Source: Acidobacteriota bacterium (GTDB lineage Bacteria; Acidobacteriota; Vicinamibacteria; Fen-336). From it: a DNA stretch of 33,615 nt. Under the pieces are notes generated by a model that made no database searches, was not told where the DNA came from, and saw only the letters and a program-made list of their open reading frames with translations. The translations under genes and the position numbers were made by a program. The stretch lies in the NCBI GenBank assembly GCA_003223555.1, contig QHVM01000076.1:31136-64750 (forward strand). The letters are read 5' to 3'. Below are positions 9,404-11,746 of the stretch, piece after piece. Each line of letters opens with the position of its first letter. The stretch's first letter is position 1.

Positions 9404-9934
9404 ATGACCACGAAAACGATGCCCACCAGGAAGAAGGTCAAGCCCGTTCCCGACGGCTACCATACCGTCACCCCGCACCTCGTCCTCGACGACTGCGCCA
9501 AGGCGATCGACTTCTACAAGAAGGCGTTCGGAGCCACCGAGACGGTGCGCATGCCCGCCCCGGGCGGCAAGATCGCCCACGCCGAGATCCAGGTCGGCGA
9601 CTCGAGGGTCATGATGAACGACGAGATGCCGCCCATGCCCGGACAGCCCGGCGTCTACAAGTCGCCCAAGGCCGCCGGTCTCTCGACGTCCGCTCTCTTC
9701 CTCTACGTCGAAGACGCCGACAAGGCCTTCGACCGCGCGGTGAAGGCGGGTTGCACCGCCCGCCAGTCACCGACCGACATGTTCTGGGGCGACCGTTGGG
9801 GCCAGGTCATCGACCCCTTCGGCCACACCTGGGGCCTGGCCACCCACATCGAGGACGTGCCGCCGTCCGAGATGGGAAAGCGGCACCAGGAATTCATGGC
9901 GAAGATGCAGCAGGGGGCCGGCAAGAAGTCGTGA
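9404..9934 (+). CDS. VOC (glyoxalase/bleomycin-resistance) superfamily protein, PhnB-like
   Basis: A 176-residue protein. ATG 9404 has GAGGAG at 9392-9397; the GTG at 9380 in the same frame would place the ribosome site inside the gene. The PhnB-type single VOC module is complete: VTPHLVLDDCAKAIDFYKKAFGA, then MPAPGGKIAHAEIQVGDSRVMMNDE, SALFLYVEDADKAFDRAV, and FWGDRWGQVIDPFGHTWGLATH. An N-terminal Lys/Thr-rich tail and a C-terminal helix (PPSEMGKRHQEFMAKMQ) are usual in this subgroup. Metal-ligand positions are hard to assign, and many PhnB-like proteins have no known reaction. A strong promoter for the next transcript begins immediately after its stop. Confidence 0.88.
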   Translation: MTTKTMPTRKKVKPVPDGYHTVTPHLVLDDCAKAIDFYKKAFGATETVRMPAPGGKIAHAEIQVGDSRVMMNDEMPPMPGQPGVYKSPKAAGLSTSALFLYVEDADKAFDRAVKAGCTARQSPTDMFWGDRWGQVIDPFGHTWGLATHIEDVPPSEMGKRHQEFMAKMQQGAGKKS

Positions 9935-9935
9935 T

Positions 9936-9964
9936 TTGACAGCGCGCAGCCGTCGCCCTATACT
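9936..9964 (+). promoter_or_regulatory. Strong sigma70-type promoter of the cimA leader
   Basis: TTGACA at 9936-9941 (6/6) and TATACT at 9959-9964 (5/6) are separated by exactly 17 bases. Transcription should start near 9971, giving a leader of ~190 bases before the cimA ATG. It is the best promoter match in the window. Confidence 0.8.
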
Positions 9965-9974
9965 GCGGGCCGTG

Positions 9975-10085
9975 ATGCGGATGCGGCCCGACGCGTCGTC
10001 AATGGCGACCGAGGGGCGGCGTCCGTCTGCGGGCTCCCGGGCCATCGCGATTATCAGCCCCCGGGGGCCCCGGCCCGCCCGCTAG
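9975..10085 (+). CDS. Probable leader peptide for isoleucine-dependent attenuation of cimA
   Basis: A 36-codon ORF inside the cimA leader RNA, ending at TAG 10083-10085. Its C-terminal part reads AIAIISPRGPRPAR, with three Ile codons at 10044, 10050 and 10053, followed by a Pro/Arg-rich, GC-rich tail. It starts about four bases after the predicted transcription start, so translation would be essentially leaderless; ATG 9981 and 10002 or GTG 9972 are alternative starts. A 9-base segment just after the Ile codons (10061-10069) is identical to the 3' arm of the terminator at 10128-10136, so it can pair with the 5' arm and act as antiterminator. Citramalate synthase commits carbon to isoleucine, which makes Ile codons the expected sensor. 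Confidence 0.65.
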   Translation: MRMRPDASSMATEGRRPSAGSRAIAIISPRGPRPAR

Positions 10086-10110
10086 GAACAGGCGAGCGCG
10101 CCGCAAACAG

Positions 10111-10145
10111 GGCCTCCGGCAGCGATGCCGGGGGCCTTTTGCTTT
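10111..10145 (+). terminator. Intrinsic terminator/attenuator in the cimA leader
   Basis: Arms 10111-10121 and 10126-10136 form an 11-base stem (one G-T pair) with a 4-base loop, followed at once by TTTTGCTTTTT (10137-10147). It lies between the promoter at 9936 and cimA at 10160, so it must be read through for cimA expression. Confidence 0.8.
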
Positions 10146-10159
10146 TTGGGAGAGACGCC

Positions 10160-11746
10160 ATGGACACCCAGGTCTACCTCTTCGACACGACGCTGCGCGA
10201 CGGCACGCAGAGCGAGGGGCTGAGCCTCTCGGTCGAGGACAAGCTGAAGATCGCCGGGCTGCTCGACGCTTTCGGCATCCACTACGTCGAGGGAGGCTGG
10301 CCGGGCTCGAACCCCAAGGACGCCGAGTTCTTCCGGCGGGCGCGGTCGCTCGCGCTGCGCCGCGCGAAGCTCGTCGCCTTCGGCGCCACCCGCAAGGCCG
10401 GCGTCCGGGTCGAGGACGATGGCAACCTGCGGGCGCTCGCGGCCGCGGAGACGCCGGCGGTATCGCTCTTCGGGAAGTCCTGGACCCTCCACGTCCGCCA
10501 CGTCCTGGAGACGACGCCGGAGGAGAACCTGGCCATGATCGCGGACAGCGTCGCGTGGCTGAAGTCACGGGGCAAGGAGGTCGTCTACGACGCGGAGCAC
10601 TTCTTCGACGGTTACCGCGCCGATCCCGTCTACGCGCTCGCGACCGTGCGCGCGGCCGCCCAGTCGGGGGCGGACTGGGTGGTGCTGTGCGACACCAACG
10701 GCGGCAGCCTCCCCCACTGGGTGGCCGACGTGACCGCCGAGGTGCGCCGGGAGCTGCGGACGCCGCTGGGCATCCACAGCCACAACGACGGCGAGCTGGC
10801 CGTGGCGAACGCGCTGGCCGCGGTCGAGGCCGGTTGCCGCCAGGTCCAGGGGACGATCAACGGGTACGGCGAGCGGTGCGGCAACGCCAACCTCGTCTCG
10901 ATCGTTCCCGCCCTGCAGCTCAAGATGGGGCTGTCGACGGTGCCGCCCGAGAGCCTGGCCCGGCTCACCGAGCTGGCGCGGACGGTGAGCGAGATCGCCA
11001 ACCTCAACCCGGACTCGCACGCGCCCTACGTGGGGGCGTCGGCCTTCGCCCACAAGGGCGGGGTGCACGTCGCCGCGGTCGAGAAGCTGGCCGAGAGCTA
11101 CGAGCACGTCCCGCCCGAGGTCGTGGGCAACCGGCGGCACGTCGTGGTGTCCGAGCTGTCGGGAAGGGGGAACGTGCGGGTGAAGGCGGACGAGCTCGGG
11201 GTCGCCGCGGACGGCCGCGAGCGGGAGCTGCTGGCCCGGGTCAAGGAGCTGGAGAGCGAGGGCTACCAGTTCGAGGCCGCGGAGGGCTCGTTCGAGCTGC
11301 TCGTCCGGCGCCGCCAGCCGGGGTACGCGCCGCCCTTCGAGCTGCTGGACGTCGTGGTCGTGTCGCAGCGGCGCCGGGGAGAGGCCATGATCGCCGAGGC
11401 CATGGTCAAGCTGCGCGTCGGGGGGGAGACCGTGCACACCGCGGCGGAGGGCGACGGGCCCGTGCACGCGCTCGACCGCGCGCTGCGCAAGGCCCTGCTG
11501 CCGCATTATCCGGGGCTGGCCGACGTGCGCCTCGCCGACTACAAGGTACGCATCCTCGATCCCGAATCGGCCACCGGGGCCCGGACGCGCGTCCTCATCG
11601 AGGCCGCGCGCGGCGAGGAGCGCTGGAGCACCCTCGGCGTGTCGCGGAACATCATCGAAGCCAGCGGCCTGGCCCTGGCCGACAGCCTGGAGCTGCCCCT
11701 GCTGCGCGCGGGTGTCGGCCGGCCGCTCGAGAGCCAGACCGCATGA
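10160..11746 (+). CDS. cimA: (R)-citramalate synthase
   Basis: CimA condenses acetyl-CoA with pyruvate to (R)-citramalate, the first step of the threonine-independent isoleucine pathway. It has 528 residues, typical of CimA (about 520-540) and longer than a plain homocitrate synthase. The DRE-TIM metallolyase start is YLFDTTLRDGTQSEG, then VEGGWPGSNPKD, FGATRK, DAEHFFDGYRADP, LCDTNGG, HSHNDGELAVANALAAVEAG and GTINGYGERCGNANL. A C-terminal LeuA-type allosteric domain (about residues 385-520) probably binds isoleucine. ATG 10160 has GGGAGAG at 10148-10154; the TTG at 10139 is inside the terminator. The EGGWPG and RKAG signatures separate CimA-type enzymes from LeuA; the substrate is inferred from these. 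An upstream attenuator likely controls it. Confidence 0.93.
   Translation: MDTQVYLFDTTLRDGTQSEGLSLSVEDKLKIAGLLDAFGIHYVEGGWPGSNPKDAEFFRRARSLALRRAKLVAFGATRKAGVRVEDDGNLRALAAAETPAVSLFGKSWTLHVRHVLETTPEENLAMIADSVAWLKSRGKEVVYDAEHFFDGYRADPVYALATVRAAAQSGADWVVLCDTNGGSLPHWVADVTAEVRRELRTPLGIHSHNDGELAVANALAAVEAGCRQVQGTINGYGERCGNANLVSIVPALQLKMGLSTVPPESLARLTELARTVSEIANLNPDSHAPYVGASAFAHKGGVHVAAVEKLAESYEHVPPEVVGNRRHVVVSELSGRGNVRVKADELGVAADGRERELLARVKELESEGYQFEAAEGSFELLVRRRQPGYAPPFELLDVVVVSQRRRGEAMIAEAMVKLRVGGETVHTAAEGDGPVHALDRALRKALLPHYPGLADVRLADYKVRILDPESATGARTRVLIEAARGEERWSTLGVSRNIIEASGLALADSLELPLLRAGVGRPLESQTA

Follow-up and report, generated by a model that had tools for sequence, protein, structure and literature searches.

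A predicted ribosome-mediated attenuator reading isoleucine codons ahead of the citramalate synthase gene cimA in an acidobacterial genome

The region immediately upstream of cimA, the gene for citramalate synthase, was analyzed in a 33,615-nucleotide stretch of contig QHVM01000076.1 of an Acidobacteriota bacterium (class Vicinamibacteria, Fen-336; assembly GCA_003223555.1). This stretch is called the window, and all positions refer to it. The region very probably forms a ribosome-mediated transcription attenuator, in which the supply of charged isoleucine (Ile) tRNA would set the expression of cimA. By nearly all of the tests that can be applied to sequence, it has the properties of such an attenuator. 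A promoter with an open reading frame (ORF) carrying codons for the end product, a terminator, an antiterminator that excludes it, and coding conservation of the leader (in one homologue) were all found, as they are in trp/ilv-type systems. The first-pass annotation of this DNA had proposed an Ile leader peptide, an exclusive antiterminator and terminator, and a ribosome stall at an early Ile codon, and this core reading is supported. Regulation of cimA by Ile is a prediction.

The elements lie in order on the forward strand. The promoter (9936-9964) consists of a -35 element, TTGACA, at 9936-9941 and a -10 element, TATACT, at 9959-9964, separated by a spacer of 17 nucleotides. It matches the sigma-70-type consensus at 11 of 12 positions, and 0.1 such sites would be expected by chance in the 2 kb scanned. 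Transcription would start at approximately 9971-9972, either at a GTG at 9972 or a few bases before the ATG at 9975, and the leader ORF would therefore be leaderless or nearly so. This ORF (9975-10085) runs for 36 codons from the ATG to a TAG at 10083-10085, with the in-frame GTG at 9972 as an alternative start. Its translation is MRMRPDASSMATEGRRPSAGSRAIAIISPRGPRPAR, with the C-terminal end AIAIISPRGPRPAR, and the Ile codons fall within AIAII. The putative control codons, ATC GCG ATT ATC (Ile-Ala-Ile-Ile), occupy 10044-10055, with Ile at 10044, 10050 and 10053. Ile is the sole branched-chain residue in the peptide, and three Ile within five codons has a p of about 0.008 at an assumed Ile frequency of 3.6%. 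A terminator of 13 pairs with a loop of 4 (-26.2 kcal/mol) lies between the ORF and cimA, and is followed by a T-rich tract at 10137-10147. A purine-rich, Shine-Dalgarno-like stretch at 10148-10154 precedes cimA itself (10160-11746), the controlled gene, which begins with an ATG at 10160. The 528-amino acid product of cimA matches TIGR00977 with 716 bits against a cut-off of 450 (E = 1.8e-215). Promoter, 36-codon ORF and terminator had been placed in this order at first pass, with correct coordinates; the terminator and its T-run stood, but the stem, given then as 11 bp, has 13 pairs.

The spacing of these elements bears on another possibility, that the short ORF does not control termination but chiefly raises cimA translation or couples to it by reinitiation. 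Many bacteria, Acidobacteria among them, have leader genes close to start codons (PMC4833913; here and below, cited articles are drawn on for the portions of their text available). In the same article, however, the effect peaks when 10-11 bp separate the leader stop from the start of the gene, a figure obtained for Actinobacteria. In the window this distance is 74 nt, with the terminator in between, and reinitiation is the least probable of the alternatives considered here.

Four RNA arms were predicted in the leader. Arm 2 (10060-10070), the antiterminator strand, contains the 9-mer CCGGGGGCC at 10061-10069, which recurs at 10128-10136. Arms 3 (10109-10121) and 4 (10126-10138) are the 5' and 3' arms of the terminator. 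The 9-mer complements 10111-10119 with one G-U pair, and the predicted arm 2:arm 3 duplex (-23.5 kcal/mol) and the terminator are mutually exclusive. The identity of the 9-mer to the terminator 3' arm, its complementarity to the 5' arm and the exclusive pair had all been described at first pass and were borne out; what had been missed was arm 1 (10031-10041). Arm 1 pairs with arm 2 in an 11-bp anti-antiterminator hairpin (-25.8 kcal/mol), and the Ile codons sit between these two arms. Among 500 shuffles, 8 gave a hairpin as strong. The arm 2:arm 3 energy was equalled in 19 of 1000 codon shuffles and, with arm 3 taken wider, in 34 of 500 dinucleotide shuffles. The fold of the 190-nt leader (9971-10160) has a z of -3.2. 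When this GC-rich stretch was shuffled 2000 times, a shared 9-mer arose in 100 cases; the 9-mer identity within a single genome is thus within chance and weak alone. One by one, the parts are only moderately unusual in so GC-rich a stretch, and the case rests on comparison.

The decisive check on these observations was conservation in the same genus. Two genomes of the genus were in the set compared, that of the window (G000, locus L001) and one other (G002, locus L002), whose cimA is 90% identical to that of the window. L002 keeps the full unit: the promoter boxes and their spacing, the frame, the Ile codons, the antiterminator strand and the terminator. Its leader begins with GTGATGCGGATG, contains MRMQPAAVTVIAGRRPSTGSPAIAIISRRGPRPAR and shares the TAG stop codon, and the frame, the stop codon and the C-terminal half of the peptide are kept. 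The sole indel within the ORF is 3 nt long, and two gaps between stop codon and terminator are 2 nt each. All three Ile are retained, the third through a synonymous change from ATC to ATT. The nine bases of arm 2 are identical to those of the window, as are positions 10111-10121 of arm 3, and the nine paired bases are the same on both sides of the 2:3 duplex. Arm 4 is the same as far as 10135, where a C to T change follows, and the terminator differs only at its outer end. In arm 1, bases have changed and the hairpin still reaches -25.7 kcal/mol, with a one-base bulge. The arm 2:arm 3 energy of L002 was equalled in 3 of 500 shuffles. The first-pass annotation had looked to homologous leaders for the Ile ORF and the repeated arm; the one close homologue has both, and the four cimA genes of the family outside the genus have no Ile leader upstream. 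In two of these (G005 and G007), a leuA-like frame was seen by eye before cimA.

The same comparison addresses the possibility that the hairpin is an ordinary terminator, belonging to the upstream gene or to a short RNA, with an Ile ORF and a repeat that arose by chance in a GC-rich stretch. A neighbouring ORF on the same strand does end at 9934, upstream of the promoter, and the chance frequency of the 9-mer would agree with such an origin. However, a strong promoter stands between that gene and the hairpin. In G002 the sequence upstream of the leader unit differs, whereas the unit itself is kept, with an in-frame 3-nt indel and a synonymous Ile change. Comparable Ile leaders also recur before cimA in other genomes, as described next. 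An ordinary terminator is thus a very unlikely explanation.

Sequences upstream of other cimA genes were scanned with two detectors. The strict detector looked for a short ORF with three Ile within a span of ten residues close to its end, together with a terminator of -15 kcal/mol or lower starting 5-40 nt past the stop codon; the looser one accepted a terminator 0-60 nt past the stop at -10 kcal/mol. In the phylum, 396 genomes were drawn, of which 63 have cimA, and 62 upstream stretches were read. The strict detector was positive for 12 of the 62 in the forward direction, for none of the 62 reverse complements and for none of 310 shuffles (the looser detector gave 1 positive in 310 shuffles). 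The 12 positives are the window, two genomes of a family labelled f85 and all nine loci examined from a family labelled f37; the cimA of a tenth f37 locus begins at the edge of its contig and is outside the count. For a third f85 genome of the draw (L208), a leader approximately 220 nt before cimA was seen by eye only, the detector having missed it with the ORF cut off in the stretch. By eye, all six f85 genomes of another set carry an Ile leader before cimA as well. Examples of the peptides are LAIIIRLIILPASGSG (L200) and MAQRTITHIGIAIIIITGVSPGG (L223).

Fifteen f85 and f37 leaders were aligned. In all 15, the antiterminator strand facing the terminator 5' arm includes the stop codon, which forms the final three bases of a core, GCGGRTRR. 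The terminator covaries: both bases have changed in 5 of its 11 pairs and 100% of cells are paired, a result reached in 0 of 500 shuffles. The antiterminator pairing is present in 89% of cells, compared to 32-56% in slid versions. These leaders also speak to a riboswitch or T-box, in which a ligand or uncharged tRNA would be bound directly and no leader translation would be needed. A stable leader fold (z as given above) ahead of an amino-acid biosynthesis gene would suit an element of this kind, but a stop codon within the antiterminator strand in 15 of 15 leaders, a frame-preserving indel and runs of Ile codons would not. In addition, covariance models of Rfam 15 gave no family at its gathering score in the window, T-box included, and none in 16 loci, among them L002, other cimA leaders and an ilvB leader, at the gathering threshold, the sole threshold used. 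Direct binding of this kind is more improbable still than an ordinary terminator.

Locus L082 has the clearest leader of its class, with ten Ile in MSAGLIASPNSIIIRIIAGISISIIRYMETLAVGRE. In this class, cimA is present in 271 of 396 genomes. The strict rule was positive for 1 of 31 upstream stretches of this class (0 in reverse complement, 0 in 155 shuffles) and the looser rule for 8 of 71 (0 of 71 reverse complements, 0 of 355 shuffles); three of these eight are weak by eye. In a second genome of the L082 family (L222, G437:C257:1-160), both hairpins were seen by eye to be kept before cimA, on a contig that begins inside the leader. Among the best 80 cimA loci of the contig collection, three were positive by either rule (L007, L023 and L082) and none of the 80 reverse complements was; shuffles gave 0 of 400 by the strict rule and 5 of 400 by the looser. 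L007 and L082 are records already counted above with different locus numbers. The majority of the cimA genes examined show no leader of this kind.

The effect of ribosome position was predicted by folding the leader with an assumed ribosome footprint that extends 15 nt upstream and 12 nt downstream of the A-site codon, using either the full-length transcript or one cut where arm 3 ends. In the cut transcript, the predicted probability of the antiterminator was 1.00 when Ile 10044 or 10050 occupied the A site, 0.35 at the third Ile (10053) and at most 0.03 from the following codon on. The proposal that a stall at the first Ile codon prevents termination is supported by this prediction and by the conservation described above. 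The probability also falls past the last branched-chain codons in L002, in the f85 and f37 cimA leaders and in two ilvB leaders considered below. The profiles of L002 and the ilvB leaders then recover in part, to about 0.4, through other pairings, and fall a second time; in L238 the fall after the branched-chain codons is not clean. The profile of L082 was taken with its second hairpin, 95 nt past the stop. A ribosome on the stop codon of the window's leader would cover approximately 10068-10097, leaving arm 2 mostly free for capture by arm 1. The first-pass view that a ribosome finishing the peptide covers the repeat is thus right for a ribosome in transit but not for one at the stop codon, where the 1:2 hairpin could then hold the repeat.

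These predictions are compatible with the following course of events. Transcription would begin at about 9971, and a ribosome would start the leader peptide at, or a few bases from, the 5' end. With Ile-tRNA in short supply, the ribosome would wait at the first Ile codons (10044 or 10050), covering arm 1 and leaving arm 2 free. Arm 2 would pair with arm 3 once the latter is made, the terminator would not form and cimA would be transcribed. With Ile plentiful, the ribosome would pass over arm 2, and by the time of its departure either arm 3 and arm 4 would have paired or arm 1 would have retaken arm 2; in both cases transcription would end before cimA. If the leader were not translated, the 1:2 and 3:4 hairpins would form and transcription would stop.

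Several results weigh against an Ile-responsive attenuator and are considered together. The shared 9-mer is within chance, as noted, and the copy in the L002 terminator matches at 8 of 9 positions, the last base having changed. Only one close homologue of the leader is present among the genomes compared, and 50 of the 62 phylum cimA genes gave no detector call. In the 15 aligned f85 and f37 leaders, the antiterminator shows no covariation beyond that of shuffles (102 of 500), and 6 of the 9 f37 leaders have a 2:3 energy that is ordinary given their composition, with 68 to 268 of 500 shuffles as good. In the cut transcript, A-site codons from 10017 to 10050 all gave antiterminator probabilities of 0.99-1.00, so a stall at codons 10017-10041 yields the antiterminator too. 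Since a stall before the Ile codons also frees the antiterminator, Ile specificity rests on codon content, and in this model the Ile codons are the last, and not the only, effective stall sites. In the full-length transcript at equilibrium, the terminator was favored wherever the ribosome was placed (lowest probability 0.62), and a stall favored the antiterminator only when the transcript was cut at the end of arm 3. Because the terminator wins once arm 4 is made, the switch would have to be co-transcriptional.

A second leader of this type precedes ilvB in both genomes of the genus (L147, G000:C26; L148, G002:C388), with a valine/leucine/isoleucine (Val/Leu/Ile) peptide, a repeat and a terminator. 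Its motif is VSVLLRVLVLRSI in G000 and LSVLLRVLVLRSI in G002. The G000 peptide is MLHSAAVPLAGPPQAHVSVLLRVLVLRSIRPPGGSGI, and a TTGACA promoter was noted by eye. The codons read differ between the two leaders, the ilvB peptide containing Val, Leu and Ile and the cimA peptide of the window only Ile among the branched-chain residues. A leuA match lies approximately 1.6 kb past ilvB on the same contig of G000. By eye, the frame ahead of the ilvB leader looks like ilvD.

Considered together with the leaders of other families, it is likely that bacteria using the citramalate route have brought cimA itself under an Ile-reading attenuator more than once. Within the window's genus this attenuator would operate beside a separate Val/Leu/Ile attenuator on ilvB, tuning the entry to Ile apart from the shared steps. 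The probable hallmark of the f85 and f37 leaders is the stop codon inside the antiterminator strand, whereas the leader of the window's genus would instead be closed via arm 1. In a tree of 88 CimA proteins, made by a quick method and leaving out the f37 and f57 genes and 40 later upstream stretches, the leader-bearing proteins (the genus of the window in family f1, f85, L082 and L023) are on separate branches, which fits repeated gain or repeated loss. Six threonine dehydratase matches were found in each of G000 and G002. None reaches the curated cut-off, and almost all of them cover the model of 380 positions only up to about position 300; the threonine route to Ile is therefore not established in these genomes. 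These comparisons give a likely function to one class of Acidobacteria attenuators and provide a sequence rule for finding more: Ile codons, antiterminator, stop codon, terminator, cimA. They suggest that some citramalate-using organisms sense Ile at cimA, where that route begins.

The E. coli ilvGMEDA, ilvBN, leu and trp attenuators follow a four-arm logic (1:2, 2:3, 3:4) with control codons ahead of arm 2. The leader of the window has the same predicted logic in another phylum and before another gene. Attenuation through an upstream ORF (uORF) has been described for Corynebacterium ilvB, and two motifs, ilvB-OMG and that of Leptospira ilvB, have been put forward as further cases (PMC10272879). 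The C. glutamicum ilvBNC attenuator (ilvB-II motif) resembles the window's leader in layout, having a short uORF with branched-chain codons and three hairpin types, terminator, antiterminator and anti-antiterminator (PMC10272879, PMC11857589). Its start codon is one nucleotide from the transcription start (PMC11857589), a precedent for the near-leaderless peptide proposed here. It differs in that it controls acetohydroxyacid synthase via Val, Leu and Ile codons, whereas the window's leader precedes cimA and reads only Ile. The ilvB-OMG and Leptospira motifs are similar as candidate uORF attenuators outside the classical models, with branched-chain and threonine codons (PMC10272879), but precede ilvB; the Rfam scans gave no match to them, their presence in that copy of Rfam being unchecked. 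Like the leader of the window, the actinobacterial ilvB leaders have a short ORF before a branched-chain gene, in their case with runs of Ile, Val and Leu, and a terminator, unlike the actinobacterial leuA LEU element, which is described as a pseudoknot with the leuA Shine-Dalgarno box and not as a terminator (PMC1262725). The available text of that article has 0 occurrences of cimA.

According to a survey of 2010, almost all attenuators predicted in Acidobacteria were without an associated function, and its authors knew of demonstrated leader-peptide systems only from Proteobacteria and Actinobacteria, apart from a single atypical case (PMC2965389). Among the matches listed, none was a paper on cimA attenuation, most subscription journals lying outside the search; a 2010 survey in Mol Biol (Lopatovskaya et al.) may already include some cases, and PMC13158618, in its available text, mentions a leader peptide and citramalate in unrelated places. 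The mechanism is a known one, and cimA as its target in these phyla was without a description in the literature searched.

With the leader peptide as a protein query against the 396 phylum genomes, only the window stood out among the matches listed; the others had E values of at least 0.0037, and G002 was not among them. Leader DNA gave strong matches only in G000 and G002 among 17 genomes of the order, with weak matches in G000:C151 (80% over about 42 bases) and G001 (72%). At the threshold used, cimA was found in 6 of 14 genomes of the family, and the other 8 were without a match. The family cimA genes (L001-L006) fall into two distant clades of the protein tree, one with G000, G002, G005, G007 and a Myxococcales-labelled metagenome-assembled genome, the other with G009, G010, Anaeromyxobacter and f41. 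The two distant clades and the 8 of 14 genomes without a cimA match suggest transfer or loss.

Ile-rich ORFs, such as IGVIIISTIIPSAGF, also precede cimA in the acidobacterial family f57 (L231, L250, L251). They are excluded from the attenuators counted here; the stop codon of L250 and L251 coincides with the start of a GC hairpin, which a ribosome at that place would therefore block and not free. In leaders of a Chloroflexota type (L265, L282, L286, L287, L294, L298, L300 and L023), an ORF containing Ile is accompanied by a terminator, but for most no convincing antiterminator was found in the duplex test, the best being L298 (15 of 500); L265, L282 and L298 make weak candidates for Ile leaders. 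The leaders of L286, L294, L300, L287 and L023 are similar to one another, with IAIISIRVSIIR or IAISSTRGP and a CCTTCC/GGAAGG terminator; a simple duplex test revealed no clear antiterminator in them. The IAIIS stretch of this group resembles the peptide of the window.

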